64,000 nt of DNA, taken from Acidobacteriota bacterium (GTDB taxonomy: Bacteria; Acidobacteriota; Vicinamibacteria; Vicinamibacterales; UBA8438). The notes beneath the pieces are model-generated. The model saw only the letters and a list, made by a program, of their open reading frames with translations, did no database searches and was not told the DNA's origin. The translations under genes were made by a program, and so were the position numbers. The stretch covers positions 1 to 64,000 of the forward strand of contig VXME01000102.1 of NCBI GenBank assembly GCA_009861545.1, read 5' to 3'. The stretch's first letter is position 1; every line of letters starts with the position of its first letter. Shown piece after piece: positions 13,429 to 62,220 of the stretch.

Positions 13429-13820
13429 CACACCACCCCTCGGCACTGGCTACGGGAGGACCGATCCTCGGAAGACGCTCGTTGAATCCCGACGGCTCGC
13501 GGCTCTCGGCGGACCGGCCCGAGCGCACGCGTCCGCAGAAATTCGCCCAGCTTCGATTTCGTTACCTGCCCTTTGTACGCTTCTCGCCGGGTGTTGTCAA
13601 CGCAGACGCGAAGCGATAGCGCCGCCAAAAGGGGTCGCAGGATTCCGCGTGCGGCCCCAGCCCACGCCCCAGGACCCGGCGCCTCGGACCGCACCGCGTT
13701 GCGTTCTACGGCGCAATCTCCTAGCATCCGCAATTGTCTATAAACGCGAGGCGCGATGCATCGCCGGTCGGATGCCGCGGGCGCTGGCCACGGGCCGCCG
13801 GAACCTGGGAGGGATGTCTC
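13429..13820. other. Divergent intergenic region of module A
   Basis: These 392 bases separate the DUF1592 gene from the divergent ankyrin gene. The minus-strand promoter at 13572-13600 is the only clear signal. For the ankyrin gene I see a strong GGGAGGG ribosome-binding site at 13808-13814 region but no convincing -35/-10 pair. No conserved small gene was recognised. Confidence 0.5.
13572..13600 (-). promoter_or_regulatory. Sigma-70-type promoter for DUF1592-DUF1552 (module A)
   Basis: On the minus strand TTGACA (13600-13595) is followed after 17 bases by TACAAA (13577-13572). A start near 13565 would give a leader of about 137 bases before the ATG at 13428. The -35 is a perfect consensus. 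Confidence 0.65.
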
Positions 13821-29491: not shown

Positions 29492-29706
29492 CAGATCTGT
29501 CTCCGTTTCCAAGTGCGGGCCGCGACGGCCAGGAACCAGACGGACGCGACCGCGACCATCGCCCACTCCAGCAGGAAACTCGGCTCGACGCCGGTCGTGA
29601 TGTCGTCGAGGGCCAGGAGCACCAGCAGCGCCACCAGGCACGTGACGACTCGGCCGGCGTACCTCCGCAAGCGAGCCGGCGTCTCCGCGGAGACCGGATC
29701 GCTCAT
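29491..29706 (-). CDS. Small two-helix membrane protein (module B)
   Basis: This 71-residue protein has two hydrophobic helices (about 19-37 and 44-63) and a basic C-terminus (ARTWKRRQI). ATG at 29706 has GGAGG nine bases upstream; ATG at 29712 is an alternative. It lies between the DUF1552 and ankyrin genes and overlaps the ankyrin start. A membrane anchor or assembly factor for module B is possible; no counterpart was found at the same place in modules A, C or D, although a 53-residue one-helix protein follows module C on the other strand. Confidence 0.65.
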   Translation of the reverse strand: MSDPVSAETPARLRRYAGRVVTCLVALLVLLALDDITTGVEPSFLLEWAMVAVASVWFLAVAARTWKRRQI

Positions 29707-29790
29707 CGTCATGCTCCTCCGCTGCGCGCCCGCAGGCATCCGAACCCCGCACCGCTCGTCGACGCGGCGCGGGGACTCCGGCGCGGAACG

Positions 29791-31149: not shown

Positions 31150-33620
31150 TGCTCTCGCGCCTTCCTCATCTGAAACGGCGTGCTCTCGACGATGCCGAGG
31201 ATCAGAGACGACCAGCGGTAGTCGTCCGCCTCGGCCTGCCGCACGATGCGCCGGATCCACGGGAGGTCGTAGTACTCCACCCCGCGGCCGAGCCCATAGG
31301 TCAACAACTTCTCGGTGACGGTGCCGACGAACTCCTCGCGGTTGGCGAGCAGCATCTCGCGCACGCTCGCCGGCCCGTTCAGCTCCCGCCCGCTGGGCAG
31401 CGTGCCCGAGGTCTGCTCCAACGGCAACTCCCGATAGCCGCCGATGGCGTCGAACCCCTCGAGCGCGAAGCCGAGCGGGTCCATCCGAACGTGGCAGCTC
31501 GCGCAGACCGGATCGGTCCGGTGCCGCTCCATCCGCTCGCGGACCGACCGGGGGCGGCTCTCCGGATCCGACGGATCGGCCACCGAATCCGAATCTTCCA
31601 ACCCCGGCACGTCCGCCGGCGGGGGAGGCGGCGGCGCGCCGAGCAGGTTCTCCAGCACCCAGACCCCCCGTTTCACCGGCGACGTCCGGTTGGCGTAGGA
31701 GGTCGCGGTCAGCACGCTGCCCTGGCCCAGGATGCCGCGGCGCCGCTCGTCCGGCAGCGTGACCCGCCGGAAGTGGTTCCCCTCGACGTCGGGGATGCCG
31801 TAGTGCTTCGCCAGGCGCTCGTTGGCGAAGGTGTAATCGGAGGTCAGCACCTCGATGACGCTGCGGTCTTCCTTGATCTGGCTCTCGAACCACAGCTCGG
31901 TCTCGCGCGTGAACGCCTCGCGCAGGTTGCCGTCGAACTCGGGGAACGCGACCGGGTCCGGCTTGACCGACCGCATGTTCCGCAGGAACAGCCACTGGCC
32001 GGCGAAATTGTCGACCAGGGCGTCGGCCTTCGGATCGGCCAGCATGCGCCGCACCTGCGCTCCCAGCACGCCCTCGTCCCGGAGCACCCCGCGCGCCGCC
32101 GCGTCCAGCAGCTCGTCGTCCGGAATGCTGCTCCAGAGGAAGAACGACAGGCGGGAGGCCAGCTCCAGGTCCGAGATGCGGTACGGCTCGCCGGGCGCGG
32201 CCGCCGCCGGATCCTGCTCGATGCGGAACAGGAACTCCGGGTCGACCAGGATGGCCCGCAACGCGAACTCGACGCCCGACTCGAAGCCGCCCTTCGCGTG
32301 TCCCACGTCGTAGAACGCCATCAGGGCGGCGACGTCGTCGTCCGTGACCGGCCGCCGGAACGCGCGACGGGCCAGCGTGGCCAGAATCTCCTCCGCGCAG
32401 GCCGGCTCTGCCGACGCGTTGTCCGGCGCGCAGGTGAAGATGCGCTCGCGGCTCGGCGTGGCTGCGTCAACCGCCGCCGTGGCGCCGTTGAACGGCCCCT
32501 CGATCTCGACGATCCAGACTGCCATCGGCGCGTCGCGGTCCCCCGCATAGTGGTAGGTCTCGGCCGCGCTCACCGGCTCGAGGACCCCCTCCGGCAGTGC
32601 GCTCCGACGCAGGAACGACAGCGCCACCTCGCGCATCCCCGCCTGCACCGGCATCCGGAACCGCAGGTCGGAGTCGGCGTTGCGCTCGTAGGGGGTCAGG
32701 TTGAAGACCGCGTTCCAGGCCTCGCGCTGCCCGTCGGCGCCGATCTCGAAGCGGGCGACGCGGGCGCGGTCGAGCCGCACCTCCAACGTGTTGCGGCGCT
32801 GCAGCCCCTTGATGGCGTCGCCGTGCGTCCGCTCCAGCGTGACCCTGATCTCGTACTCTCCGTCGACCGGAAAGTAGTGCCGGGTCGCAAACCCGCCGCG
32901 GCTGCCGAACGGGTGCATCTCGCTCATCCGCGCGTGCTGCATCAGCACCGGCGACGTGGTGTAGACCGCGGTGGTCGACCGGATGGACGGGTCGCCTACA
33001 GCCGTCTCGGCGATCTTGCCGGCCGCAAGCATGTAGCGTTCGAGCAGGGCCGGCGACAGCGACAGGACGTCGGCGATGTTGTCGAAGCCGTAGCTCAGAT
33101 CGTCGGCCGGCAGCAGCTCGCGGCCATCGATCTCCAGGGCCAGCAGATCGCGGATGGCATTGGTGTACTCCGTCCGGTTCAATCGGTGCACGGTCTCGGT
33201 GCCCGGGTTCAGGTCGGCAGCGGCGTCACGGTCGAGCCCCGCCTCGATCCATTCGACGAACCCGCCGTACGTCGCGTCGTCCGGACGCGGCCGACGCGGC
33301 GGCGGCATCTCCCGCGCCCGCAGCTTGCGGATCACTTTCTCCCAGACTTCCGCGCCCTCGCCCACGTGGACCATGTCGAGCGACTCGAGCGTCAGCCCGG
33401 CCGTCCGCAGGCGATCGTTGTGGCAGGTGGTGCAGTACCGATCCAGGACGGCTCGGTACTCGGCGCTTCCGGCGGCGTGCGTCGCGGACGCTTCCGCGGG
33501 AACCTCGGGCGGCTGACCGGCGGCATGCGCCGCGGGTGGCGCAACGAACAGAACGGCCAGCGCGACGACCGCCGCCGATACGGACAAACGTCGGAAAATC
33601 GCGAGCACTGGACGCCTCAC
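31146..33620 (-). CDS. Di-heme DUF1592-type exported cytochrome (module B)
   Basis: This 824-residue protein has a Sec signal (about 8-33), a first heme site CTTCH at residues 63-67, the carbohydrate-binding-like beta region, LASRLSFFLWSSIPDDELL, KRGVWVLENLLGAPPPPPP and a second CASCH followed by MDPLGFALEGFDAIG and the DUF1585 tail ending STPFQMRKA. I chose GTG at 33620: the mapped promoter at 33661-33690 would start transcription near 33654, downstream of the longer alternative starts at 33674 and 33662. It precedes and overlaps the DUF1552 gene. Confidence 0.9.
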   Translation of the reverse strand: MRRPVLAIFRRLSVSAAVVALAVLFVAPPAAHAAGQPPEVPAEASATHAAGSAEYRAVLDRYCTTCHNDRLRTAGLTLESLDMVHVGEGAEVWEKVIRKLRAREMPPPRRPRPDDATYGGFVEWIEAGLDRDAAADLNPGTETVHRLNRTEYTNAIRDLLALEIDGRELLPADDLSYGFDNIADVLSLSPALLERYMLAAGKIAETAVGDPSIRSTTAVYTTSPVLMQHARMSEMHPFGSRGGFATRHYFPVDGEYEIRVTLERTHGDAIKGLQRRNTLEVRLDRARVARFEIGADGQREAWNAVFNLTPYERNADSDLRFRMPVQAGMREVALSFLRRSALPEGVLEPVSAAETYHYAGDRDAPMAVWIVEIEGPFNGATAAVDAATPSRERIFTCAPDNASAEPACAEEILATLARRAFRRPVTDDDVAALMAFYDVGHAKGGFESGVEFALRAILVDPEFLFRIEQDPAAAAPGEPYRISDLELASRLSFFLWSSIPDDELLDAAARGVLRDEGVLGAQVRRMLADPKADALVDNFAGQWLFLRNMRSVKPDPVAFPEFDGNLREAFTRETELWFESQIKEDRSVIEVLTSDYTFANERLAKHYGIPDVEGNHFRRVTLPDERRRGILGQGSVLTATSYANRTSPVKRGVWVLENLLGAPPPPPPADVPGLEDSDSVADPSDPESRPRSVRERMERHRTDPVCASCHVRMDPLGFALEGFDAIGGYRELPLEQTSGTLPSGRELNGPASVREMLLANREEFVGTVTEKLLTYGLGRGVEYYDLPWIRRIVRQAEADDYRWSSLILGIVESTPFQMRKAREQ

Positions 33621-33660
33621 TCTCGATATGGCGGCGAGATCAGCCCCAAAGTATCCGTGC

Positions 33661-33690
33661 ATTATCCGAATCAACCGCCTCGGGTGTCAA
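33661..33690 (-). promoter_or_regulatory. Strong sigma-70-type promoter for module B
   Basis: On the minus strand TTGACA (33690-33685) and GATAAT (33666-33661) are 18 bases apart. The predicted start near 33654 gives a leader of about 34 bases to GTG 33620. This is one of the best promoter matches in the window. Confidence 0.7.
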
Positions 33691-41656: not shown

Positions 41657-43351
41657 ATGAACAAGCGCTTTCATGCGCTCGCGCCGGCACTCTGCGCCCT
41701 GTTGACCGCGACGGACGCACCGGCGCTGACCGCGGGTGGCATCCACGCCGCTCCCGTTCGGCCCCGCGCCGCGCCGGTCTCGGTCGAGCTTTCGGCGCAG
41801 CAGGCTTCCGGCGGCGCGGCCCTGGCCGATCGGCGGCTCGCGGACGCGGCGCAGCGCCGGGAGGTCGAGGCGGTGCGGGCGCTGCTCGACGAAGGGATCG
41901 ACGTCGACGCGCCCCAGGCCGATGGAGCCACGGCGCTGGCGTGGGCGGTCCACTGGGACGATCTCGCGACGGCCGGTCTGCTGTTGGCCGCCGGCGCCGA
42001 TGCGAACGCCGCGAACGACCTCGGCGTCACGCCGCTGATGCTCGCCAGCCAGAACGCCAGCGTGCCGATGGTGGAGCTGCTCGTGCGGGCCGGGGCGGAT
42101 CCGAACGCGGCCCGCCCGGCGGGCGGGACCGCGCTGATGATGGCCGCGCGCTCGGGCGACGCGACCGTGCTGCGGCGGCTGCTCGCGGCCGGAGCCGACG
42201 TCGACGCGGCGACGAGGAGCGGGCATACCGCATTGATGTGGGCGGTTGCCGAACGGCACCCCCGCGCGGTGGCGCTGCTGGCGGAGGTCGGGGCCGACGT
42301 GCAGGCGCGCACCGCGGTGCATACGCCGCGGGCCCGGACGATCGTCCGCGAGGCGAAGGTGTTGAGCCGGTTCGAAGCCGTCAACCCCGCCGTGCTCCCG
42401 CGGGACGGGGACCGGGATCCCCCGCGGCCGGAGGGCGGATTCACGCCGCTGCTCTACGCGGTCCTGGCCGGTGACGCGCCGACCGTGCGCGTGCTGCTGT
42501 CCGCCGGTGCGGACGTCGACGATGCCGGACCCGACGGCGTCACCGCGCTGATGCTGGCCCTGGTGAAGCGCCACGAGGAGTTGGCCCTTCTCCTGGTCGC
42601 CGCGGGCGCGGATCCGCATCCGGCCGATGCCGGCTTCACGGCGTTGCATCTGGCCAGCGCCACCGGCAGCTTGGCCGTGGCCGAGGCGTTGCTCGCCCGC
42701 GGCGCGGATCCGGATGTCCGCCTCGAACGCCCGCAGCGTCTCACCAACTCGTTCGAGATCGGCGTCTTCACGTCTCCCGGCTCGGGACGGCTGACCCAGA
42801 TCGGCTCCACGCCGCTCATCGTGGCCGCCAAGTCCGCGGACGGCCGGATGATGCGCCTGCTGGCCGCGGCGGGGGCGGACCCGCACCTGACGACCGATGA
42901 CGGATCGAACGCCCTGATGCTCGCGGCCGGGCTCGGCAAGCGCGCCGCGACCGACATCACCTACTACGCCTGGACCGAGGAGAAGGCGGTGGAGGCGCTC
43001 GCCGCGGGGCTGGAGCTTGGCCTCGACGTCAACGCCGCCAACGCGCACGGCGAGACCGCCCTGCACGCCGCGGCCTACCACAACGCGAACCGCGTCATCG
43101 AATTCCTCGTGGACAACGGCGCGGACATCGATGCGCTGAACGCGGCCGGGCAGACGCCGCTGCGCCTCGCCGAGGGGCATCTGATCTGTTGCACCACCTT
43201 CGTGCGACACCCCGCGGCGGCGATGCGGCTGCGGGAGCTGGGGGCAGACCCCGCCGCCGGCATCCGGTTGACGTTCGGACTGACGAACTACGGCGATCGG
43301 GATCAGGCCGCGCCCGAGCCCCGCGGCCCTGCGGCCCGCACGGGACGCTGA
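41657..43351 (+). CDS. Exported ankyrin-repeat protein (module C)
   Basis: This 564-residue protein has a Sec signal region (about 1-48) and ankyrin repeats through most of its length. The shared order is TALAWAVHWDD, TPLMLASQNAS, ALMMAARSGD, HTALMWAVAERH, TPLLYAVLAGD, TALMLALVKRH, TALHLASATG, TPLIVAAKSADG, NALMLAAGLG and TALHAAAYHNANRVIEFL. A C-terminal spacer with two adjacent Cys (LICCTTFV) follows. The stop codon overlaps the DUF1592 start as TGATG, so it is directly coupled to that cytochrome. A TAGCAT hexamer 12 bases before the ATG is a possible -10 with no ribosome-binding site. Confidence 0.92.
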   Translation: MNKRFHALAPALCALLTATDAPALTAGGIHAAPVRPRAAPVSVELSAQQASGGAALADRRLADAAQRREVEAVRALLDEGIDVDAPQADGATALAWAVHWDDLATAGLLLAAGADANAANDLGVTPLMLASQNASVPMVELLVRAGADPNAARPAGGTALMMAARSGDATVLRRLLAAGADVDAATRSGHTALMWAVAERHPRAVALLAEVGADVQARTAVHTPRARTIVREAKVLSRFEAVNPAVLPRDGDRDPPRPEGGFTPLLYAVLAGDAPTVRVLLSAGADVDDAGPDGVTALMLALVKRHEELALLLVAAGADPHPADAGFTALHLASATGSLAVAEALLARGADPDVRLERPQRLTNSFEIGVFTSPGSGRLTQIGSTPLIVAAKSADGRMMRLLAAAGADPHLTTDDGSNALMLAAGLGKRAATDITYYAWTEEKAVEALAAGLELGLDVNAANAHGETALHAAAYHNANRVIEFLVDNGADIDALNAAGQTPLRLAEGHLICCTTFVRHPAAAMRLRELGADPAAGIRLTFGLTNYGDRDQAAPEPRGPAARTGR

Positions 43352-45714
43352 TGGAGACGATGGCGCTGAAACGGACGGCGGTCGTCGCGGGCATCGTCGT
43401 GGCGTCGGGTCTGACCGGCGCGGGTCCGGTACCGGCGCAGGAAGCCGAGGACACCCGGGCGGCCGTCACGGCCCGCGCCGCGCTCGACCGCTACTGCGTC
43501 ACCTGCCACAACGAACGCCTGCGCACGGCGGGGCTGGCCCTCGACACGGCCGATCCGGGACACGTCGGCGACGCCCCCGAGATCTGGGAGAAAGTGGTGC
43601 GGAAGCTCCGCACCGGCATGATGCCGCCCGCACCGCGCCCGCGGCCGGACGCGGAAACCTACTCCGCGGTCGTCGGCTACCTGGAAGCCGCTCTCGACCG
43701 CGCCTCGGACGCGAGCCCCGATCCGGGGCGGCCCGCGTTGCAGCGACTCAACCGCGCCGAGTTCACCAACGCGGTCCGGGACCTGCTGGCGCTGGAGGTC
43801 GACGGGCGGGCCCTGCTGCCGGCGGACGATTCGGGCTACGGATTCGACAACATCGGCGACGTGCTGTCGGTCTCGCCGGGGCTGTTGGAACGCTACCTGC
43901 TGGCGGCCGCGAAGATCAGCCGCCGCGCTGTCGGCGACCCGACGCTGCGCCCGGCCACCGCCGTCTACAAGACGTCGCCGCTGCTCTCGCAGGACGGCCG
44001 CGTCAGCGAGGATCTGCCGTTCGGGTCCCGCGGCGGTCTCGCGGTGCGGCACCACTTCCCACTCGACGCGGAATACGTGGTTCGGGTGGCCCTGCGGGGA
44101 CGCGCACGCGCCGGGCACCAACTGGAGATCCGTCTCGATCGCGAACGCGTCCGGCTCTTCGACCTGGCGGGAAGGGAGCCGCTGGCGGTACGCATTTCGG
44201 TGACCGCCGGCGCCCGGCTGCTGGGCGCTTCCTTCGTCGAGGAAATCGGGCGTTCGCTGCCGGTCGACGGGCGGCCGGCGCCGCCCCCGATCACCAGCTT
44301 CGCCTTCACGCTCTATCCGAACGCCCCGTCCGTGGAACGCATCGAGGTCGTCGGTCCCTTCGACGGACGAGCGCCCGCGGACACCCCGAGCCGCCGGGCC
44401 ATCTTCATCTGCCACCCGAGCGAAGAAACCGACGAACGGCCGTGCGCCGAGCGGATCCTCACGTCGCTCGCACGCCGTGCGTACCGGCGGCCGGTGACCG
44501 CCGCCGACACCGCGCCCCTCCTCGCCGCCTTCGAGGCGGGCCGGGACGCGGGCAACGGCTTCGACGACGGCATCCGGTGGGCCCTCGAGGCGCTGCTCGT
44601 GTCGCCGAAGTTCCTGTTCCGAGTGGAACGCGAGCCGGCGGACGCGGCGCCGGACGCCCCCTACCGTATCGCCGACCTCGACCTGGCCTCGCGGCTGTCG
44701 TTCTTCCTGTGGAGCAGCATCCCGGACGACGAGCTCGTGGAGCTGGCCGCCCGCGGGGAGTTGAGCGACCCGGCCGTGCTGGAATCGCAGGTCCGCCGGA
44801 TGCTCGCCGACCCGCGCTCTCGGGCTCTGGTGGAGAACTTCGCCGGCCAGTGGCTCTATCTCCGCAACCTGCGCACGGTGACGCCGGACACCACGCGGTT
44901 TCCCGCGTTCGACGACAACCTCCGGCAGGCGCTCCAACGAGAGACCGAGCTGCTCTTCGGAAGTCAGCTCCGAGAGGACCGCAGCGTCCACGACCTGCTG
45001 CGAGCCGACTACACCTACGTCAACGAACGGCTGGCCCGGCACTACGGCATTCCCAACGTCTACGGGAACCACTTCCGCCGCGTGCAGTACCGCGACGACC
45101 GGCGGGCCGGCCTGCTCGGTCACGGGAGCATCCTGACGGTGACCTCCTATCCGCACCGCACCTCCCCGGTGCTGCGGGGGAAGTGGCTGCTCGAGAATCT
45201 TCTGGGCGCGCCGCCGCCGCCGCCGCCCGACATCCCGGAGCTCGGCGGAGACGACGCCGCCGCTGTACCGGCCACGATGCGCGAGCGCATGGCGCAGCAT
45301 CGGGCCAGCCCCGCGTGCTCGACCTGTCACGCGAAGATCGATCCGCTGGGATTCGCCCTCGAGAACTTCGACGCGGTCGGACGCTGGCGCGCGAGTGAGG
45401 ACGGAACGGCCACCGCCATCGACGCCTCGGGCGAGCTGCCCGACGGCGCCCCGTTCGACGGCCCCGCCGCGTTCCGCGACGCGCTGCTGCGCTCGCCGTG
45501 GGCCACCGAGTTCGCCACCGCCGTCACCGAGAAGCTGCTGACCTACGCGCTCGGGCGCGGGCTGGACCACCGCGACGCGCCGGCCGTGCGCCGGATTCTT
45601 CGGAACGCCGAGGCCGGCGGCTATCGCTGGTCGTCGCTGATTCTCGGTATCGTCGAGAGCGCGCCGTTCCGGATGCGGAAACCGTTGGACGCGAGCGACC
45701 ACAGCGCACCGTAG
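43351..45714 (+). CDS. Di-heme DUF1592-type exported cytochrome (module C)
   Basis: This 787-residue protein is the shortest of the four. After a Sec signal the first heme site CVTCH is at residues 49-53, then the DUF1592/1588 core with LASRLSFFLWSSIPDDELVEL, and a second CSTCH followed by KIDPLGFALENFDAVG and the DUF1585 tail. I take ATG 43351, whose A is the last base of the ankyrin stop; ATG at 43360 is an alternative. In this module the order is ankyrin, DUF1592, DUF1552. Confidence 0.92.
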   Translation: METMALKRTAVVAGIVVASGLTGAGPVPAQEAEDTRAAVTARAALDRYCVTCHNERLRTAGLALDTADPGHVGDAPEIWEKVVRKLRTGMMPPAPRPRPDAETYSAVVGYLEAALDRASDASPDPGRPALQRLNRAEFTNAVRDLLALEVDGRALLPADDSGYGFDNIGDVLSVSPGLLERYLLAAAKISRRAVGDPTLRPATAVYKTSPLLSQDGRVSEDLPFGSRGGLAVRHHFPLDAEYVVRVALRGRARAGHQLEIRLDRERVRLFDLAGREPLAVRISVTAGARLLGASFVEEIGRSLPVDGRPAPPPITSFAFTLYPNAPSVERIEVVGPFDGRAPADTPSRRAIFICHPSEETDERPCAERILTSLARRAYRRPVTAADTAPLLAAFEAGRDAGNGFDDGIRWALEALLVSPKFLFRVEREPADAAPDAPYRIADLDLASRLSFFLWSSIPDDELVELAARGELSDPAVLESQVRRMLADPRSRALVENFAGQWLYLRNLRTVTPDTTRFPAFDDNLRQALQRETELLFGSQLREDRSVHDLLRADYTYVNERLARHYGIPNVYGNHFRRVQYRDDRRAGLLGHGSILTVTSYPHRTSPVLRGKWLLENLLGAPPPPPPDIPELGGDDAAAVPATMRERMAQHRASPACSTCHAKIDPLGFALENFDAVGRWRASEDGTATAIDASGELPDGAPFDGPAAFRDALLRSPWATEFATAVTEKLLTYALGRGLDHRDAPAVRRILRNAEAGGYRWSSLILGIVESAPFRMRKPLDASDHSAP

Positions 45715-45734
45715 CGGACGATAGAGGTGCAGAG

Positions 45735-47090
45735 ATGATCATCACGAAGAAGACGCTTCCCCGCCGTACGGTGCTCCGCGGTCTCGGCGCCTCGCTGGCG
45801 CTGCCCCTGCTGGACGGTATGGTCCCGGCGTTTGCGGCGATCCGCAACTCGGCGGCCAGCCCCGTCCGTCGCTTCGGCGCCGTCTACGTGCCGAACGGCG
45901 TCGAGATGCGCGCCTGGACCCCCGGGGGAACCGGCACGGCGCTGGAGTTGACGCCCGTCCTCGAGCCGCTGGCGCCGGTGCGCGAGCGGGTCAACGTGCT
46001 GAGCGGCCTGGCCGACAAGGTGGCCATCCCGCGCGAGGGCGAAGGGGTCGGAGATCACGCCCGCGCCGCGTCGACGTGGTTGACCGGCGTGCACGTCAAG
46101 AAGACCGAGGGACCCGACATCCGGGCCGGCGTCTCCGTGGATCAGATTGCCGCCCGTGCTTTCGGCAACGAGACCCAGCTCGCCTCACTGGAGCTGGCCA
46201 TCGATTCGGTCGAGGTGCTCGGCGCGTGCGATCAGGGCTATAGCTGCGCCTACACGAACACCATCGCCTGGCGCACGCCGACCACGCCGTTGCCGATGGA
46301 GAACAACCCGCGCGCGGTGTTCGAGCGCCTTTTCGGCGCCACCGACAGCACGGACGTCCAGGCGCGGCTGGCCCGCCTCCGCCAGGACCGCAGCATCCTC
46401 GATTTCGTGACCGACGAGGCGGACGCGCTGCAGCGCACCCTGGGCGCCGGTGACCAGCGCAAGCTCGCCCAGTATCTCGACGCGGTGCGCGACGTCGAGC
46501 GGCGCATCCAGATGGCCGAGCGCCAGAGCGACCGCGAGATCCCGGTCGTCGAGCAGCCGGCCGGCATCCCGGACACGTTCGAGGAGCACTGCCGGCTGAT
46601 GTTCGACCTGCTGATCCTGGCCTACCAGACCGACCTGACGCGCGTCAGCACGTTCATGTTCGGCAGGGAGGTCAGCGGCCGGTCGTTCCCCGAGATCGGC
46701 GTGCCGGGCGGCCACCACGGCTACTCGCACCACCAGAACGACCCCGAGAACCTGGCGATGCTCGCCCGGATCAATACGCATCACATCCGGCAGTTCGGCT
46801 ACTTCCTGGAGAAGATGCAGTCGATCCCGGACGGCGACGGCTCGCTGCTCGACCACTCGCTGTTCGTCTACGGCGCGGGCATCAGCGACGGCAACCTGCA
46901 CTTCCACCTCGACCTGCCGACGCTGCTGGCCGGCGGAGCCGCGGGGCGCGTGCGGGGCGGCCGCCATCTGCGCTACGACCACGACACGCCGCTGTCGAAC
47001 CTGCACGTCGCCGTGCTCGAGAAGCTGGGGCTGCCGGTGGAGACCTTCGGGGACAGCACGGGCAAGCTGCAATACCTGACGGGAATCTAG
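45735..47090 (+). CDS. Tat-exported DUF1552 protein (module C)
   Basis: This 451-residue protein has a Tat signal PRRTVLRGLGASLALPLL, then RFGAVYVPNGVEMRAW, the paired-cysteine CDQGYSCAYTNTIAW, MENNPRAVFERLFG, KLAQYLDAVRDVERRI, GVPGGHHGYSHHQNDP and LLDHSLFVYGAGISDGN. It starts 20 bases after the DUF1592 stop with GAGGTG as ribosome-binding site, rather than overlapping it. The module is otherwise collinear. Function unknown. Confidence 0.92.
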   Translation: MIITKKTLPRRTVLRGLGASLALPLLDGMVPAFAAIRNSAASPVRRFGAVYVPNGVEMRAWTPGGTGTALELTPVLEPLAPVRERVNVLSGLADKVAIPREGEGVGDHARAASTWLTGVHVKKTEGPDIRAGVSVDQIAARAFGNETQLASLELAIDSVEVLGACDQGYSCAYTNTIAWRTPTTPLPMENNPRAVFERLFGATDSTDVQARLARLRQDRSILDFVTDEADALQRTLGAGDQRKLAQYLDAVRDVERRIQMAERQSDREIPVVEQPAGIPDTFEEHCRLMFDLLILAYQTDLTRVSTFMFGREVSGRSFPEIGVPGGHHGYSHHQNDPENLAMLARINTHHIRQFGYFLEKMQSIPDGDGSLLDHSLFVYGAGISDGNLHFHLDLPTLLAGGAAGRVRGGRHLRYDHDTPLSNLHVAVLEKLGLPVETFGDSTGKLQYLTGI

Positions 47091-53730: not shown

Positions 53731-55677
53731 TCAGCGCAGGCTCCGCAGGTAGTTCACCAGGTTCCAGATGTCCGGCTCGCTGAGCCGGCCGCGGAAGGCA
53801 TCCATCGCGTAGTCCGGTCCGATGCCGTCGCGGATCGCCGCGAAGATCTCTCCGTCGCTGCCGCCATGCCGCCACGTCGTGTCGGCGAGGTTCGACGGAC
53901 GCGCACCGTAGGCGGCGGTGGCGGCCGCCAGCCGGCCGTCCCCGCGTCCGGTCGGGCCATGGCACGTCGCGCAGTGGGCGCGGTAGAGGGCGGCGCCGGC
54001 GGCCACCGAGGCCGAGGTCGCGACTATCGGGTTCGTCAGACCCTGCGCTGCGGGACGTTCACGCGGCCGGACCGGGTGCGCGACGTCCACACTGGCGTCC
54101 TCCGTCGCCGCCGATTCCGACAGCGAACGGAGAAGCGCCGCGGTGTCCTCGCGCACGAAACGGTCGCCGCCGATGCCGTCGGCGTAGAAGGCCAGCGCCA
54201 GCGGCGTCTCGCCGCGCCGGTTCTCCACGTCCGGGTCCGCGCCGCGTGACGTCAACAACTCGATGACGCGGTTCATGCCGTGCGAGGCCGCGGCGTGCAG
54301 GGCGGTGTCGCCGGCATCGTTGGCCGCGTTGACGTCCGCGCCCAGCGCCAGCGCCGCAGCGACCGCCGCGCGGGCCAGGCGCTCCTCGGCGGCCGGGATC
54401 GTCGAGCCGAGCGCGGCCGACTCGACCGGGTTGTAGGAAGAGAAGTCGCGCCGATCCCGGATGAACGCGCTGCCGCCGCCCCGGTTGTAGCCCTGGCCCG
54501 CCGCCGCCATCAGCGGCGTGGTGCCGTCCCGGCTCGGCTGCCGCGAATCCGCGCCGGCGGCCGCGAGCACCCGCAGCATCTCGACCTCCAGGAACCGGGC
54601 GGCGAGCCAGAACGGCGTGGCGCCGACCCACCGATCCATGAAGGCGAAGTCGTGGCTCCAGCGGCGCACCGGCGTGCCGCTGGTCAACCGCGCGTTCGGA
54701 TCGGCCCCGTGCTCGAGGAGCGCGCGCACCAGCGGCAGCCCGGCCCCCGGATCGTCGTTCGCGACGCCGCGGTCGCGCAGCGTGCCCCGCAGCACCGCCG
54801 CGTGCAGCGCCGTGTAGCCGAGCGGCGCCGCGTTCGGGTCCGCCCCCGCGTCGAGCAGGAACGCGGCCAGCGATCCGTGACCGCTGTGGGCCGCGATGTT
54901 GAGGGCGGTATTGCCGTCGGCCGCGGTGTCGTGCACGTCCGCACCGGCGGCGATCAGCAGGCGGGCCGACTCCAGGTCGCCCGAGCGCGCGGCGAACAGC
55001 AGCGGGGTGGTCCCGCCCTCGGCGACCTCCTCCAGGGCGATGCCGCGCGACGCCGAGCCGGCCGAGCGGCTGCCGCCCATGTTGTAGACCCGACGCCGGG
55101 TGCCGGTGCGGGCGTGAATGTCGGCCCCGTGGTCGAGGAGCATCCGAGTGACCGCCGGCCGCCGGTTCGCGACCGCCCACATCAGGGCCGACTGACCGCG
55201 CGTCGTCTCGATGGCGTTCACGTGCGCCCCGGCATCCAGCAGGGCGTCCACCGCCCCCGGGCTCCCCGCGCGCGCCGCCGCCATCAGGGCCGTCTCGCCG
55301 CTGGCGAGCGCCCCGTTCGGATCCGCGCCGGCCGCCAGGAGGCGCTCGACCAGCGCGCCGTGCCCGCGGGCGCAGGCCATCAGGAGCGGCGTGACGCCGA
55401 GATCGTTCGCCGCGTCGACGTCGGCGCCGGCGCCGAGGAGCAGGTCGGCAATCTCCACGCTCTCGCGGTGGACCGCCCAGTGGAGGGCCGTGGCGCCGTC
55501 CGGCTGCCGCCCGTCCGCATCGACCGCTGCGAAGAGCAGCGTCCGCACGGCCGCAACGTCCACGGCTCGCACGGCCGAGATCAGACGTGACGCCCCGGAT
55601 GCGGGTTCCGCCTGACCCTGGACGGCGGCCGGCGCCGCAGCCAGAAGTGCTGCAAGCAGCAGCGCGCATCTCGCCAT
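53731..55677 (-). CDS. Exported ankyrin-repeat protein fused to cytochrome c (module D)
   Basis: This 648-residue protein has a Sec signal (about 1-23), the same ankyrin repeat order as the other modules (TALHWAVHRES, TPLLMACARGH, ALMAAARAGS, GQSALMWAVANR, TPLLFAARSGD, TALNIAAHSG, TALHAAVLRG, TPFWLAARFLEV, TPLMAAAGQG, TALHAAASHGMNRVIELL), and then a C-terminal class I cytochrome c domain (about 560-648). The heme site is HCATCHGPTGRGDG, and the distal methionine is probably in PDYAMDAFRG; the domain ends IWNLVNYLRSL. This fusion ties the ankyrin protein to electron transfer. It starts four bases after the DUF1552 stop, so it is in the same operon. Confidence 0.93.
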   Translation of the reverse strand: MARCALLLAALLAAAPAAVQGQAEPASGASRLISAVRAVDVAAVRTLLFAAVDADGRQPDGATALHWAVHRESVEIADLLLGAGADVDAANDLGVTPLLMACARGHGALVERLLAAGADPNGALASGETALMAAARAGSPGAVDALLDAGAHVNAIETTRGQSALMWAVANRRPAVTRMLLDHGADIHARTGTRRRVYNMGGSRSAGSASRGIALEEVAEGGTTPLLFAARSGDLESARLLIAAGADVHDTAADGNTALNIAAHSGHGSLAAFLLDAGADPNAAPLGYTALHAAVLRGTLRDRGVANDDPGAGLPLVRALLEHGADPNARLTSGTPVRRWSHDFAFMDRWVGATPFWLAARFLEVEMLRVLAAAGADSRQPSRDGTTPLMAAAGQGYNRGGGSAFIRDRRDFSSYNPVESAALGSTIPAAEERLARAAVAAALALGADVNAANDAGDTALHAAASHGMNRVIELLTSRGADPDVENRRGETPLALAFYADGIGGDRFVREDTAALLRSLSESAATEDASVDVAHPVRPRERPAAQGLTNPIVATSASVAAGAALYRAHCATCHGPTGRGDGRLAAATAAYGARPSNLADTTWRHGGSDGEIFAAIRDGIGPDYAMDAFRGRLSEPDIWNLVNYLRSLR

Positions 55678-55681
55678 GGCG

Positions 55682-57055
55682 CTACAGGTCCAGCCGCCCG
55701 GTGCTGTCGTGGAGACTGTCGAGCCGCATGCCCAGCTTCTCCGCCACCGTCAGGTGCAGGTTGGCGAGGGGCGTGCCGCCGGCGACGGACCGGCCGCCGC
55801 CCGCGCCGCCGTCGTAGCGCAGGTGCCGGCCGCCCTTCAGGCGTCCCCCACCGCCGCCCGCCACCACCAGCGGCAGGTTCCACGGCTGGTGATCGCCCTC
55901 GGACATGCCCGCGCCGTAGTAGAGGACGACGTGATCCAGCAGCGAGCCGTCGCCGTCCGGAGTCGCGGCCAGGCGGCCGAGGTAGTAGGCGAACTGCTCG
56001 GCGTGGTGCGTGTTGATGCGGATCAACTGCTCGCGGCTGATCGAGCTGTCCTCGTGCGACAGCGGATGGTGTCCGCCGGGCGCGCCGATCTCCGGATAGG
56101 TGCGGCTGCTGAACTCGCGGCCCACCATGAACGTGATGACGCGCGTCAGGTCGCTCTGATACGCGAGCACCTGCAGGTCGAACATCAGCCGCGCGTGGTC
56201 CGCGAAGCTCGCGGGCACGCCGGCCGGCTGGTCGAATGCCGGAAGCTCCCGCGCCGCCTGGGCCTCGATGCGCTGGATCCGCCGCTCGATGTCCCGCACG
56301 GCGTCTAGGTACTCCGCCAGCTTGGCCGCGTCGCCCGGACCGAGATCGCGGGCGAGGGCGGCCGCCTTCTCGCCGACCGAATCGAGCAGGCTGCGGTTCT
56401 GCGCCAGCCGCGCCTGGCGGACGGCCGGGTCGGTGCTGCCGCCGTCGCCGAACATCCGCTCGAAGACCACGCGCGGGTTGTGCTCCATCGGGAGCGGGGT
56501 CCGCGGGCCGCGCCACGTGATGGTGTGGCTGTAGGTGCAACTGTAGCCGCCGTCGCAGGTGCCCGCCCCCTTGTCGCCGGACTCCAGCGACAGCTCCAGG
56601 GATCCGAGCGCGGTGTCCTGCCCGAACTCCCGGGCGAGGAGCTGATCGAGCGAGACGTCGGCCAGGAAGTCGTTGCCCTCCTGCCCGAAGGGGCGTGGGA
56701 TCGCCCCGGTCAGGTACTTCGTCGCACAGCGGCCGTGGACCGCTCCGCTGCGCGCGGTCAGGCCGTTCACGTTCTGGGTCAAGCCGGTCAGCACCAGCAG
56801 CCGGTCGCGGAACGGCTCGAGCGGCTTCAGGATCGGCGAGAGCTCGAACCCGGCGCCGGCGGCGGACGGCGTCCACCGGTCGATCACCACCCCGTTCGGC
56901 ACGTAGACGACACCGAACCGTCGCACGGGGCGGGCCGCCGAGCGGTGGAGCGCGGTCAGCGCCGGCGCCATGCCGTCGAGCAGCGGCAGCGCCACCGCCG
57001 CGCCGAGGCCGCGCAGCACCGTCCGGCGGGGAACGGCCTTCCTGGTGATGATCAT
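55682..57055 (-). CDS. Tat-exported DUF1552 protein (module D)
   Basis: This 457-residue protein has a Tat signal PRRTVLRGLGAAVALPLL, RFGVVYVPNGVVIDRW, the paired-cysteine CDGGYSCTYSHTITW, MEHNPRVVFERMFG, KLAEYLDAVRDIERRI, GAPGGHHPLSHEDS and LLDHVVLYYGAGMSEGD. It overlaps the DUF1592 gene by four bases. A short glycine-rich insertion (DGGAGGGRSVAGG) near the C-terminus is special to this copy. Function unknown. Confidence 0.92.
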   Translation of the reverse strand: MIITRKAVPRRTVLRGLGAAVALPLLDGMAPALTALHRSAARPVRRFGVVYVPNGVVIDRWTPSAAGAGFELSPILKPLEPFRDRLLVLTGLTQNVNGLTARSGAVHGRCATKYLTGAIPRPFGQEGNDFLADVSLDQLLAREFGQDTALGSLELSLESGDKGAGTCDGGYSCTYSHTITWRGPRTPLPMEHNPRVVFERMFGDGGSTDPAVRQARLAQNRSLLDSVGEKAAALARDLGPGDAAKLAEYLDAVRDIERRIQRIEAQAARELPAFDQPAGVPASFADHARLMFDLQVLAYQSDLTRVITFMVGREFSSRTYPEIGAPGGHHPLSHEDSSISREQLIRINTHHAEQFAYYLGRLAATPDGDGSLLDHVVLYYGAGMSEGDHQPWNLPLVVAGGGGGRLKGGRHLRYDGGAGGGRSVAGGTPLANLHLTVAEKLGMRLDSLHDSTGRLDL

Positions 57056-59547
57056 GACTCCGACCTCCGCATCCGGAACGACGTGCTCTCGACGATGCCC
57101 AGGATCAGGGACGACCAGCGGTGGTCGTCCTCCGCGGCGGCGCGCGTTACGGCGCGGATCACCGGGCGGTCGTAGTGCTCGATTCCGCGGCCGAGAGCGT
57201 AGGTGAGCAGCTTCTCGGTAACCGTCTCCACGAACTGCTCCGAGCGGTCCAGCAACACCCGCCGCAGACCCGCGGGACCGTCGAACGACGTCGTCCCGTC
57301 GGCAAGGACCGCCGAAGCGTCGACCGGGAGGCCGGCGTCGCGGGTACGCCAGGCCCCGACCGCGTCGAAGTTCTCCAGCGCGAAGCCGAGCGGGTCCATC
57401 GGCGCGTGACAGACGGCGCAGGCCGCGTTGCGCCGGTGTTGCGCCAGGCGCTCGCGCACGGTGCGGGGCTCGCCCGCCTCCCCGCGTGCCGGCAACGGCG
57501 GGATGTCCGGGGGCGGCGGGGCCGGCGGCGTCCCGAGGATGTTCTCCAGGAGCCATTTCGCCCGCAGCACCGGGGACGTGCGGTTGCCGTAGGACGTCGC
57601 GGCGAGGATGCTGCCCTGGCCGAGCAGGCCGCCGCGCCGCTCGTCCGGCAGCGTCACCCGCCGGTAGTGGCTTCCCGTGACACCCGCGATGCCGTAGTGC
57701 CGGGCCAGCCGTTCGTTCAGGAAGGAGTGGTCCGCGCGCAGCAGGTCGACGACGCTCCGGTCCTCGCGAAGCTGGCTCTCCACGAACAGCTCGGTCTCCC
57801 GCCGGAGGGCCTCGCGGAGGTTCTCGTCGAAATCGGGAAACAGGTTCGGATCGGGAGCGATGCCCGCGACGCTGCGCAGCGACAGCCACTGGCCGGCGAA
57901 GTTGTCGACGAGCGCGCGCGACCTCGAGTCGGCGAGCATGCGCCGCACCTGCCGTTCGCGCTCCGCGGGGTCGGACAGCCGGCCGTCGATGGCGGCGTCC
58001 AGCAGGTCGTCGTCCGGAATGCTGCTCCAGAGAAAGAACGACAGCCGCGAGGCAAGCTCCAGGTCCGAGAGCCGGTACGGGGCGCCCGGCGCGACGTCCT
58101 CCGGATCGCGCTCGATACGGAACAGGAACTCCGGATCGATGAGGAGGCGCTCGAGGGCCGCGCGGATGCCGGCCTCGAAGCCGCCCGCCTGCCGGCCGGT
58201 CCGGTAGAACGCGAGCAACGCGGCGACGTCGGCCTCGCCGACCGGGCGGCGGTACGCCCGGCGGGCCAGCGCCGCCAGGATCTGTCGGGCGCAGGCGTCC
58301 TCCGCGGCGCGGCCGCCGGGGCGGCAGATGAAGATCCGGGCGCGGCTGGCCGTCTCGCCCGATCCGGTGGCGGCGTACGGCCCGTCGATGGCGACGCTCT
58401 CGACGCCCGGCCCCTCCGGGCGCGGCGACGTGTCGGTGGTCTCGGTGACGGTGGCCCCGTACTCCCGCAGCGGCGGCTGCAGCACCCCCTCCTGCTCCCA
58501 CGACTTGCCGACGAACGACACGCCGACCACCCGCGTGCCGGCGCGCACCGGCACGCGCACGGCCAGATCCGCGTCGGCCCCGGTGCGGTAGTCGTCCCAG
58601 TCCTGGCTCGGGTACTCCGCTTCGCCGGCGGCCACGAACGTTCCCGAGAAGGTGACCGGGGCCGGCCGGCCCGGCGCCTCGGCGCCGACCGGGAAGCGCG
58701 CGACGCGCCGGCCGTCGATCCGCAGGTCCAGGTCGTGCGCCTCGTCGAGATTGACGATGTACTCGTAGACGCTGCGCTTCAGCCGGATCGTGACGAGGTA
58801 CTCGCCGTCGAGCGGAAAACGGTGGCGGACCGCGAGGCCGGCGCGGGAACCGAACGGCAGGTCGTCGCTCATCCGCTCGTTCTGCGTCATCGCGATCGGG
58901 ACGCGATAGACCTGCGACGTAGAGCCCGGCCCTATCGTCGGATCGCCGACCGCGAGACGGCTGATCCGGCGCGCCGCCGACAGGTAGCGCTCCATCAGCA
59001 CGGGGGACAGCGCCAGCGTGCCGGCGAGATTGTCGAAGCCGTGGCCCGTGTCGTCGGCCGGCAGCAGGGCGGCGGCGTCGACCTCGAGCGCCAGCAGGTC
59101 ACGCACCGCGTTCGCGTACTCGGCGCGGTTCAGGCGGTGTGCGGGCACCCGTCCCGGCTCGATCCTGGACGCGGCGGCGCGGTCGAGCTCGGCTTCCAGC
59201 CACGTCCGGAAACCGTCGTAGGTTTGCCGCTCGGGACGCGGGCGGCCGGCCGGGGGCATCATCCCGCCGCGCAGCTTCAGGACGACCCGCTCCCAGATCT
59301 CCGGCGTCGCGCCGACGCGGGAGACGTCGAGCGCATCGAGCGCGAGCCCGCCCGTCCGCAGCCGCTCGTTATGACAGGTGACGCAGTAGCGATCGAGCAG
59401 GGCGCGCTGCGGCGCTGCCGTGGAGGTGGCTTCTTGCACCGACGGCGTCCGAATCTTCTCGGCAGCCTCCACGGCCTCCGGGTGCAGCCCGACCGCGCCC
59501 GCAACGGCAGACGCCACGGCCAGGCACCGTGCGACCCTATGCCCCAT
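57052..59547 (-). CDS. Di-heme DUF1592-type exported cytochrome (module D)
   Basis: This 831-residue protein has a Sec signal (about 5-28), the first heme site CVTCH at residues 55-59, the beta-rich region, LASRLSFFLWSSIPDDDLLD, AKWLLENILGTPPAPPPPD and a second CAVCH followed by APMDPLGFALENFDAVG. The long open frame upstream has no signal peptide, and a TGTAAG hexamer (minus strand, 59562-59557) would start transcription close to the ATG at 59547, so I take that start. It is divergent from the DUF2911 gene. Confidence 0.9.
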   Translation of the reverse strand: MGHRVARCLAVASAVAGAVGLHPEAVEAAEKIRTPSVQEATSTAAPQRALLDRYCVTCHNERLRTGGLALDALDVSRVGATPEIWERVVLKLRGGMMPPAGRPRPERQTYDGFRTWLEAELDRAAASRIEPGRVPAHRLNRAEYANAVRDLLALEVDAAALLPADDTGHGFDNLAGTLALSPVLMERYLSAARRISRLAVGDPTIGPGSTSQVYRVPIAMTQNERMSDDLPFGSRAGLAVRHRFPLDGEYLVTIRLKRSVYEYIVNLDEAHDLDLRIDGRRVARFPVGAEAPGRPAPVTFSGTFVAAGEAEYPSQDWDDYRTGADADLAVRVPVRAGTRVVGVSFVGKSWEQEGVLQPPLREYGATVTETTDTSPRPEGPGVESVAIDGPYAATGSGETASRARIFICRPGGRAAEDACARQILAALARRAYRRPVGEADVAALLAFYRTGRQAGGFEAGIRAALERLLIDPEFLFRIERDPEDVAPGAPYRLSDLELASRLSFFLWSSIPDDDLLDAAIDGRLSDPAERERQVRRMLADSRSRALVDNFAGQWLSLRSVAGIAPDPNLFPDFDENLREALRRETELFVESQLREDRSVVDLLRADHSFLNERLARHYGIAGVTGSHYRRVTLPDERRGGLLGQGSILAATSYGNRTSPVLRAKWLLENILGTPPAPPPPDIPPLPARGEAGEPRTVRERLAQHRRNAACAVCHAPMDPLGFALENFDAVGAWRTRDAGLPVDASAVLADGTTSFDGPAGLRRVLLDRSEQFVETVTEKLLTYALGRGIEHYDRPVIRAVTRAAAEDDHRWSSLILGIVESTSFRMRRSES

Positions 59548-59587
59548 GGCCGCCATCTTACACCCGCACCCGGGCCGGGACCGGCCG

Positions 59588-59593
59588 TAGAAT
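59588..59593 (+). promoter_or_regulatory. TAGAAT nine bases upstream of a start codon
   Basis: TAGAAT ends nine bases before the ATG at 59603, predicting a nearly leaderless transcript. No ribosome-binding site is present. The divergent minus-strand gene has a similar arrangement, with TGTAAG at 59562-59557. Confidence 0.45.
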
Positions 59594-59602
59594 GGGGCCG
59601 AT

Positions 59603-60232
59603 ATGCGTACCCTCAGCCTCCGTGCCGGACCCGCCGCGCTGGCCGTCCTGCTGCTCATCCCAACCCTAGCCGCCCAGGACCGTAGCGGGCCGACGCCCAA
59701 GGTGGCCCCCAGCGGCCGGGTGACGACGAGCGTGACCTTCGACGGCCGCGTGCTGCCCGACGGCGGGTGGTTCACCTACACCCCGTCCCACTCGGGCCCG
59801 TCCCGCATCACCATCGACTACGGCCAGCCGCACGCCCGGACCCGGGAGATTTTCGGCGGGCTGGTTCCCTACGACGAGGTCTGGCGCCTGGGGGCGAACT
59901 GGGCCACGCGCCTGACCCTCGACTTCGACGTCCGCTTCGGCGAGCTCGACGTGCCGCGCGGGGAGTACACGCTGTTCATGCTCCCGCGGGAACACGGCGG
60001 CGAGCTCATCGTGAGCCGCCAGACCCGGCAGTGGGGCACGGACTACGACCCCTCCTTCGACTTCGGCAGGACGTCCATCGGTCGCCGCACGCTGGAAGGA
60101 AACGTCCGCAGCCTGGCGGTCACCCTGGAACCGGACCTGCCGGCGGAAGAGGGAGCCGCCCCGTCCGGGATGCTCCGCATCACCTGGGGACAAGCGGAGT
60201 ACTTCACCGCCTGGCGGATGCGCTGGCCCTGA
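59603..60232 (+). CDS. Exported DUF2911 protein
   Basis: This 209-residue protein has a Sec signal (about 1-24) and a DUF2911 domain with the usual landmarks: SRITIDYGQPHARTREIFGG, LVPYDEVWRLGANWATRLTL, LDVPRGEYTLFMLPRE and an ELIVSRQTRQWGTDYD strand. DUF2911 proteins are exported in Bacteroidetes and Acidobacteria; their role is unknown. It is followed after 209 bases by the heme/Vgb protein. Confidence 0.88.
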   Translation: MRTLSLRAGPAALAVLLLIPTLAAQDRSGPTPKVAPSGRVTTSVTFDGRVLPDGGWFTYTPSHSGPSRITIDYGQPHARTREIFGGLVPYDEVWRLGANWATRLTLDFDVRFGELDVPRGEYTLFMLPREHGGELIVSRQTRQWGTDYDPSFDFGRTSIGRRTLEGNVRSLAVTLEPDLPAEEGAAPSGMLRITWGQAEYFTAWRMRWP

Positions 60233-60441: not shown

Positions 60442-62220
60442 ATGCGTATCGAGACGACGGCTCGGCATCGAACCCGCCTGGCGGTATCGACGGTCGCGGC
60501 GGCCCTGCTCGTCGGTACGGGCGCGTTGCCCGGCAGCCCCGCACTGGCTCAGGACGCCGGCGCAACCGGCGTGATCGCCGGCAGCGTGGCGGCCGACCGC
60601 GGCGAGGTGCGCGCCCTGCGCGTCAAGGCGCACGACACCGTCCACCGCATCGCCTATACCGTCTACACGCGGGACGGCCGCTACCGTATCTTCAATCTGC
60701 CGCCGAGCACCTACGACGTCAGCGTCGTCGAGGAGGCGTTCGAGTCGCCGACCGCGACGGTGGAGGTGAGTGCGGGCGCGACGACGACCGTCGATATCGT
60801 GCTGACGGCCCTCGGCGCCGGACCCGAGCAGGGCGCCGCGGCCGCTGGTGCATCGGCCCAGCGGAACTACGGCGGCGGAGCGGCTGACGATCGGGCGGCG
60901 GAGATCGTCGACTTCGACACTCTCTACCCGCCTCATCCGGCACGCGACGTCATGCTGCGCTCCTGCTTCGGCTGTCACGGCCCGGCCGGCTTCCACCGCC
61001 GCGGGCCGCGCAACGAGCGCGGCTGGCGCCGGGCCGTCGACCGGATGTTCGACATCGACGGCCGTGTCGCAAACATGGCGCCCGGCGTGCCGCAGATAAC
61101 GCACGACCTGGTGTCGGTCGACGAGAAGGAACTGATCATCCAGTACCTGACCTCCCTCTTCGGACCGGGCTCGACGCCGCGCGACCTCGAGCTCGACCCG
61201 CTCGTCCGCGACGAGCAGGCGCTCTCCGAGGCGGTCTACATCGAGTACGAGCTGAAGCGCGGGCCGGAGCGGCTGCTCTCGAACGGCGCGCCGCCGCGCG
61301 GCAGCATCCACAGCGTCTTCGCGAGCCGCGCCGAGCCGGGGGTCATCTGGGTGTCGGGCAACGGCTCGAACTCCATCATCCGCATGGACAGCCGGGATCC
61401 CGACTTCGAGACCCGCACCGACGAGCTGTGGATCGAGAACGAGGAGAACATCAACGTCACGCCGCACGGCATCGTCGAGTACCGCGGCCGCGTCTACTGG
61501 GTCGAGCTGACCGGCGACCACTTCGGCGAGCTCGACCCCGCCACCGGCGAGATGAAGCGCTACCCGATGCCGACGAAGGGCGCCGGCCCGCACAGCGTCT
61601 GGGTCGATTCCCGCGGCAGCTTCTGGTACACCTACTTCGCCTCGGCCGGCCGCATCGGCCGCTTCGACCTCGCCGCCGAGGACTTCACCGAGTGGGAGCC
61701 CCTGTCCGGTTTCAGCGGCTACGGCATCGTCGTCGACCGGCAGGACCGGGTCTGGGCGGTCGGCCTGCACACGCCCGCCATCTACATGTACAACCAGGAG
61801 ACGGCCGCGTGGCGGTCGTACCCGCTGGCCAACCCGGCGCGGCGCCCCGCCATCGACTCCGACGGCAAGATCTGGGCCGCCCACTACTTCGGCAACGCGA
61901 TCTCGAAGATCGATCCGGTCACATCCGCCGTCACCGAGTACGTGCTGCCGCTCAAGGACGGCAACCCCTACGACGTCTGGCCGGACGACGACGATAACCT
62001 CTGGGTCGAGAACGGCATCTACAACTCGCTGGTCCGCTTCGACCAGCAGACCGACGAGTTCACCTACTTCCCGTTCCCGGAGCTGCGGGCGCACACGCCG
62101 AAGCTCGACCGCGATGCGGAAGGCACGCTCTGGTTCACCTTGCGCGGGCCGTCCGGACCGGGCGTGGCGGCGCTGAAACCGCACGGCAACGTGCCGGCGG
62201 AAACGAATGCCGGCCAGTAG
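60442..62220 (+). CDS. Exported carboxypeptidase-regulatory/heme/Vgb-like propeller protein, copy 2
   Basis: This 592-residue protein has the same domain order as the one at 15440: Sec signal (about 1-37), CnaB-like domain (about 40-118, GVIAGSVAADRGEV and YRIFNLPPSTYDVSVV), one heme site CFGCH (about 175-179), and a Vgb/streptogramin lyase-like propeller (about 285-580) with blade motifs GPHSVWVDSRGSFWYTYF, GYGIVVDRQDRVWAVGLH, RRPAIDSDGKIWAAHYFG and NPYDVWPDDDDNLWVENG. AAGGGGAGG supports ATG at 60442. A possible TTTCAC-TACGAT promoter lies near 60276-60303. Unlike copy A it is not joined to an ankyrin gene. Confidence 0.87.
   Translation: MRIETTARHRTRLAVSTVAAALLVGTGALPGSPALAQDAGATGVIAGSVAADRGEVRALRVKAHDTVHRIAYTVYTRDGRYRIFNLPPSTYDVSVVEEAFESPTATVEVSAGATTTVDIVLTALGAGPEQGAAAAGASAQRNYGGGAADDRAAEIVDFDTLYPPHPARDVMLRSCFGCHGPAGFHRRGPRNERGWRRAVDRMFDIDGRVANMAPGVPQITHDLVSVDEKELIIQYLTSLFGPGSTPRDLELDPLVRDEQALSEAVYIEYELKRGPERLLSNGAPPRGSIHSVFASRAEPGVIWVSGNGSNSIIRMDSRDPDFETRTDELWIENEENINVTPHGIVEYRGRVYWVELTGDHFGELDPATGEMKRYPMPTKGAGPHSVWVDSRGSFWYTYFASAGRIGRFDLAAEDFTEWEPLSGFSGYGIVVDRQDRVWAVGLHTPAIYMYNQETAAWRSYPLANPARRPAIDSDGKIWAAHYFGNAISKIDPVTSAVTEYVLPLKDGNPYDVWPDDDDNLWVENGIYNSLVRFDQQTDEFTYFPFPELRAHTPKLDRDAEGTLWFTLRGPSGPGVAALKPHGNVPAETNAGQ

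Follow-up and report, generated by a model that had tools for sequence, protein, structure and literature searches.

The window, i.e., the whole stretch of 64,000 nucleotides analysed here from an Acidobacteriota genome, contains four gene modules (A to D) in which ankyrin genes lie next to genes for c-type cytochromes. In module D the ankyrin protein itself continues into a haem domain. What does an ankyrin protein do for a cytochrome, and what does a haem do at the end of an ankyrin protein? A sequence-only reading of this DNA had answered that the ankyrin part positions or matures the haem protein. The features on which the present analysis bears are collected in Table 1.

Table 1. Positions, strands and supporting evidence of the features considered in the window.
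Feature	Position	Strand	Evidence or remark
Module A: DUF1592 cytochrome, divergent from the ankyrin gene	10990..13446	-	Pfam
Module A: ankyrin gene	13725..15443	+	frame bounds
Module A: haem protein with CQRCH and CarboxypepD_reg	15440..17602	+
Module B: DUF1592 (31146-33674), DUF1552 (about 29791-31150) and ankyrin gene	28073..33674	-	one strand
Module C: ankyrin gene (41657-43351), DUF1592 (43351 to 45714), DUF1552 (to 47090)	41657..47090	+
Module D: TonB-dependent receptor with CarboxypepD_reg, downstream of the fusion gene	50569-53079	-
Module D: ankyrin-cytochrome c fusion gene	53731..55677	-	ATG start, 648 aa plus stop; Pfam, 16 aligned orthologues
Fusion: signal-peptide-like N-terminus, residues 1-22, MARCALLLAALLAAAPAAVQGQ	55612..55677	-	sequence
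Fusion: ankyrin solenoid, residues 30-520	54118..55590	-	Pfam, orthologue alignment, pLDDT, PDB folds
Fusion: Pro/His-rich variable linker, residues 521-552	54022..54117	-	alignment, relaxed dN/dS, pLDDT <50
Fusion: predicted class I cytochrome c domain, residues 553-648	53734..54021	-	Pfam, PDB cytochromes c
Fusion: haem c attachment motif CATCH, residues 569-573	53959..53973	-	C569, C572 and H573 invariant
Fusion: probable distal Met ligand M625	53803..53805	-	invariant, 16 orthologues
Module D: DUF1552 (HXXSHH) gene, 457 aa, Tat-type RR signal PRRTVLRGLG	55682..57055	-	Pfam 2.1e-94
Module D: DUF1592 multidomain cytochrome, two CxxCH	57052..59775	-	Pfam; ORF from GTG 59775
Module D: CarboxypepD_reg, CFGCH haem motif and Vgb-lyase-like propeller, divergent from DUF1592	60442..62220	+	Pfam; start estimated

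Architecture of the fusion protein

The ankyrin and cytochrome parts of the module D protein lie in the same frame. Ank_2 is matched in five stretches covering most of the length (Pfam, 1.4e-58). Tandem repeats forming a solenoid are found by Pfam, by the structure model and by Foldseek, the closest PDB folds of the model being ankyrin-repeat proteins. Cytochrome_CBB3 is matched at residues 557-644 (2.6e-14; 53.7 bits for a cut-off of 27) and Cytochrom_C is also matched (4.8e-11; 44.3 bits for a cut-off of 21.3). The PDB relatives of this part are cytochromes c, with 6h5l_B as best sequence match (2.3e-11). Since a family match occurs together with a conserved CxxCH in the N-terminal part of the domain and with a conserved distal Met, the domain is a predicted class I c-type cytochrome. 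The passage of the ankyrin protein into a CATCH haem domain with a likely Met ligand, as proposed from the sequence, is thus borne out by Pfam and by the alignment. By its Cytochrome_CBB3 family, CxxCH, Met ligand and best PDB matches, the domain resembles the CcoP/c552-type class I cytochromes c; unlike these, it is fused to an ankyrin solenoid within a DUF1592/DUF1552 operon.

The solenoid is interrupted by long conserved inserts (NMGGSRSAGSAS, PVRRWSHDFAFM and GGGSAFIRDRRDFSSYNP), whose strong conservation is confined to the fusion clade and does not extend to the whole ankyrin family. Ankyrin residues conserved family-wide were also considered as a docking site; they are mostly generic ankyrin consensus and no site can be named from them. 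In the AlphaFold2 model, built on 16 orthologues, most solenoid blocks have pLDDT >90 and the inserts have low values. The disordered linker has pLDDT <50, as have residues 582-630 of the cytochrome part; because of this low confidence, contacts or an interface between the domains cannot be read from the model.

Evolution of the fusion

The 16 aligned orthologues (one per genome, the window's own sequence included) each cover both the ankyrin and the cytochrome parts, with 67-91% identity. C569, C572, H573 and M625 are invariant. On the contrary, the linker varies in sequence and in length, from about 20 to 70 residues. The dN/dS values (nongapped estimates) are roughly 0.1-0.4 in the ankyrin and cytochrome parts and mostly higher in the linker, a short stretch for which the estimate is noisy. 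Purifying selection acts on both domains, and it is relaxed in the linker. An artefact or chance joining is ruled out by the orthologues found elsewhere with invariant haem residues. In G005 and G008, BLAST had matched the gene in two pieces, as if it were split; in both genomes one uninterrupted frame, containing a long linker, encodes the whole protein.

A FastTree phylogeny built from 125 ankyrin sequences places all 16 fusions in one clade (support 1.0), nested among ankyrin-only proteins. The fusion thus arose by one event and was then inherited by descent. It is present in 18 of the 28 genomes of the window's taxonomic family, including G006 and G010, where the gene is cut by contig ends and was left out of the alignment. 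In a nineteenth genome (G009) a contig end cuts the gene before the haem. Considering only family genomes of at least 90% completeness and at most 5% contamination, the fusion is found in 8 of 11.

Outside this family, no protein combining ankyrin and cytochrome matches was found among 193 genomes belonging to the class or in a phylum sample of 396 genomes. Long frames with a similar cytochrome do occur in other families of the class, none of them with ankyrin repeats. In a search of named genomes, fusion loci were found only in MAGs called Acidobacteria, Vicinamibacterales, Vicinamibacteria or Vicinamibacteraceae. The fusion is also absent from 20 further genomes reached through the loci, gammaproteobacterial ones included, several of the 20 belonging to the same order. 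It should be noted that the matches L206 and L223, from a record titled «Acidimicrobiia bacterium», coincide in position, base for base, with those of G095, a genome reported as belonging to the window's order; this public title is probably wrong.

Gene neighbourhood of the fusion

In module D the stop codon of DUF1552 is separated from the ATG of the fusion gene by 4 nt. The DUF1592 gene, for which the likely start is near 59556, encodes PSCyt1-like, PSD3, PSD5, PSD4, PSCyt3 and PSD2 domains (Pfam) and the haem motifs CVTCH (131) and CAVCH (786). Other genomes, too, have the divergent propeller gene next to the fusion module: CFGCH is present in all nine full-length orthologous neighbours, and in two further fragments located at contig or frame ends. 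Module D would thus hold four predicted c-type haems: DUF1592 has two, the propeller protein and the fusion one each. The TonB-dependent receptor was considered as a conserved partner and rejected, as it has no relative at the orthologous fusion loci.

A same-strand DUF1552 gene precedes the fusion in all 17 loci with readable upstream DNA (window included), and the order DUF1592-DUF1552-fusion is observed wherever the contig reaches DUF1592. The linkage is thus strict. The idea that other ankyrin-cytochrome fusions might mainly lack these two neighbours is contradicted, and the tie of the ankyrin protein to a c-type cytochrome system, claimed by the sequence-only reading, holds at these 17 loci.

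The other modules show the same association. In module A the ankyrin gene overlaps by ATGA (15440-15443) the gene of a protein that holds one haem motif, CQRCH; in module C it overlaps DUF1592 by TGATG (43349-43353). Both overlaps had been correctly noted before. The count of three modules out of four coupled to a cytochrome is right for A, C and D and too low in total: module B also has DUF1592, DUF1552 and the ankyrin gene on one strand, so that none of the four ankyrin genes lies outside a cytochrome module. A haem protein with CarboxypepD_reg and CQRCH or CQLCH adjoins three ankyrin genes, that of module A and two others; this type differs from the CFGCH propeller protein of module D. The 3' end of a further ankyrin gene lies at 63547-64000 (minus strand). 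This gene runs on past the window (contig 63547-67062) and is located about 3 kb from another DUF1592/DUF1552 pair (contig 70556-72195).

Fold of DUF1552

No sequence relative of DUF1592 or of DUF1552 was found in the PDB. The DUF1552 model (74 sequences) has a pLDDT of 83 and a pTM of 0.83. Its best Foldseek matches belong overwhelmingly to the sulfatase/alkaline-phosphatase superfamily (E-values of 8e-6 and up), with weak TM values of about 0.3-0.45; the nearest folds include sulfatases, phosphonate monoester hydrolases and other enzymes of the alkaline-phosphatase superfamily. R10, R11, H330, H334, D374 and H389 are invariant in the 74 sequences. The RR pair at residues 10-11 fits Tat export, and the invariant H107, D293, H330, H334, D374 and H389 could form a putative metal site.

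The cassette in the genome and in other phyla

The whole genome (6.35 Mb) contains 45 PSCyt3/DUF1588 matches (i.e., DUF1592-type cytochromes), 47 DUF1552 genes and 44 ankyrin genes. Thirty-four of the 44 ankyrin genes are located at 600 bp or less from DUF1592 or DUF1552, while about 1.8 would be expected by chance from the fraction of the genome covered. Among the ten others, three have neither partner on their contig. The 34 close linkages are distributed as follows: (i) DUF1592-DUF1552-ankyrin, with the ankyrin gene downstream (19); (ii) ankyrin-DUF1592-DUF1552, with the ankyrin gene upstream (6); (iii) ankyrin gene divergent from DUF1592-DUF1552 (9); (iv) convergent arrangement (0). The maintenance of the linkage through different gene arrangements argues for a functional bond. 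Directly next to the ankyrin gene stands DUF1552, whose product lacks a CxxCH motif, in 19 cases out of 34, and DUF1592 in the other 15. The tie formerly seen with a haem protein in particular has therefore to be widened: the cytochrome system is involved, but the partner is the whole DUF1592/DUF1552 pair.

Only one of the 44 ankyrin proteins contains a CxxCH motif, namely the fusion of module D. Linkage of ankyrin genes to DUF1592/DUF1552 is the rule and haem fusion is the exception; since 43 of the 44 paralogues have no haem, haem is not needed for the general function of these ankyrin proteins. A signal-like hydrophobic stretch precedes the repeats in 41 of the 44 paralogues, whereas within the repeats a stretch of the same size shows this feature in only 4 of 44; this count is a heuristic and not a SignalP result.

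Of 64 ankyrin-only relatives from other genomes, 55 share their stretch of DNA with DUF1592 and/or DUF1552; as these 64 were chosen for matching the query pattern best, the proportion is not a census. The linkage is seen at 12 of 12 gammaproteobacterial loci and at 2 of 2 loci from Gemmatimonadota. Among the 119 genomes of the phylum sampled for PSCyt3, 36 and 38 matches are listed for the two genomes of the window's family and 0 to 9 for the others. A high copy number is a trait of that family.

No paper linking ankyrin proteins to DUF1592 or to DUF1552 was found among the open-access papers searched. Earlier work has covered PSCyt/DUF1592 genes, with their neighbours of unassigned role, and also ankyrin proteins as partners of haem enzymes. 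A cassette that includes an ankyrin member does not seem to have been described so far.

Discussion

The reading favoured here, at somewhat better than even confidence, is that the fusion is a variant, of single origin, of exported ankyrin scaffolds belonging to a periplasmic DUF1592/DUF1552 redox module, and that its tethered haem carries electrons. It can be broken down as follows: (i) the exported ankyrin proteins would be dedicated scaffold subunits of the module; (ii) they would hold together a diheme DUF1592-type cytochrome and a Tat-exported DUF1552 protein of putatively sulfatase-like fold; (iii) the scaffold of module D would have gained a c-type cytochrome on a flexible linker; (iv) the tethered haem would relay electrons between the hemes of DUF1592 and a further carrier, candidates being a soluble cytochrome c and the haem/propeller protein encoded nearby. 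Export of the ankyrin protein is suggested by its signal-like N-terminus. A physical complex among the module proteins, electron transfer within it and the direction of electron flow are what we infer.

A redox role has a precedent among DUF1587/DUF1592-type proteins. Cbp2D of Cellvibrio japonicus (X158-X183-X132, CBM2) is a secreted redox protein that contains DUF1587 and has two cytochrome domains of c type; one of these, X183, reduces LPMOs (PMC8981238). Cbp2D differs by its CBM2 and its quinone-binding-like domain, neither of which is found by Pfam in the DUF1592 protein of the window, and no ankyrin partner is described for it (PMC8981238). The planctomycete-specific cytochromes PSCyt1-3/PSD1-5, found in Rhodopirellula and in freshwater Verrucomicrobia and stated to be of unknown function, are similar in their DUF1592-type architecture, high copy number and conserved neighbour family; the available part of that account mentions neither an ankyrin partner nor a fusion (PMC5615132).

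Fusion could also simply fix the ratio of two co-expressed partners, the cytochrome being an ordinary soluble carrier and the ankyrin part having an unrelated role such as binding of a substrate or of DUF1552. Related stand-alone cytochromes c (about 50% identity, 150-200 aa) are indeed widespread in the class and one is encoded in this genome (G000:C62). None was found beside the other ankyrin modules of the genome as a source of the fused domain, so that there is no sign of a joining of adjacent genes, and this explanation is considered unlikely.

That the ankyrin part matures or stabilizes the haem protein in a chaperone-like manner, the fused cytochrome being a fixed client, is rather improbable. 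The strong linkage to a cytochrome gene would agree with it, and exported ankyrin proteins are known to be encoded next to haem enzymes, catalase stabilizing or haem binding being their proposed functions (PMC10294975). Thus AnkB of Pseudomonas aeruginosa and Cj1386 of Campylobacter are shown or proposed to support the catalases KatB and KatA, i.e., non-covalent haem b enzymes, and to raise catalase activity (PMC10294975). Module D is similar in that an ankyrin protein is encoded beside a haem protein. It differs in three respects: (i) its partners are a c-type diheme protein and DUF1552, and no catalase is found among its neighbours (DUF1552, DUF1592, Vgb-type propeller, TonB receptor), so that the gene does not lie beside a catalase as accessory genes of the AnkB/KatB type do; (ii) its ankyrin part is much longer than AnkB or Cj1386; (iii) an ankyrin-haem fusion is not reported for these systems (PMC10294975). 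Within this genome, DUF1552, which has no haem, is found next to the ankyrin gene no less often than the cytochrome is, and this makes maturation less likely. The attachment of c-type haem is moreover carried out by the general Ccm/Ccs machinery, and the long variable linker of the fusion favours a tether over a folding clamp. In the proposal that the ankyrin part positions or matures the haem protein, the first verb is plausible as a scaffold hypothesis; nothing in the sequences speaks for the second.

It is highly improbable that the ankyrin proteins are eukaryote-like effectors by which sponge symbionts act on host cells, adjacent to cytochromes by chance or co-regulation: some relatives do come from MAGs whose isolate names suggest sponge or coral samples, and NCBIfam models of Dot/Icm ankyrin effectors are weakly matched, but no score is above the curated cut-offs (22-114 bits for cut-offs of 450-1400, i.e., generic ankyrin similarity), the linkage to DUF1592/DUF1552 is far above chance, and it is also found in marine Gammaproteobacteria, in Gemmatimonadota and in groundwater or soil Acidobacteria.

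Returning to the scaffold reading, a wider version can be put forward tentatively, and is itself somewhat doubtful: exported ankyrin proteins may be a general third subunit of DUF1592/DUF1552 systems in several phyla, forming dozens of substrate-specific redox modules in which the ankyrin protein acts as docking arm. If so, each parallel copy of the module would have its own ankyrin specificity scaffold, and the fusion would reveal the docking arm used for electron transfer.

Several bacterial phyla contain DUF1592/PSCyt and DUF1552 proteins in large numbers, and an ankyrin partner found across phyla offers a handle on their function. It places the ankyrin protein in the same module as DUF1592 and DUF1552, with a complex as prediction, and the fusion provides a construct that already carries both the ankyrin part and a redox reporter on one chain. 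What is new is a probably secreted ankyrin protein with its own predicted electron-carrying haem domain, in one family of Acidobacteriota. Most ankyrin genes of this genome would then encode components of periplasmic redox modules rather than effectors directed at a host, in a cassette of haem protein, putatively sulfatase-like protein and ankyrin protein that is present in dozens of copies in a single genome.
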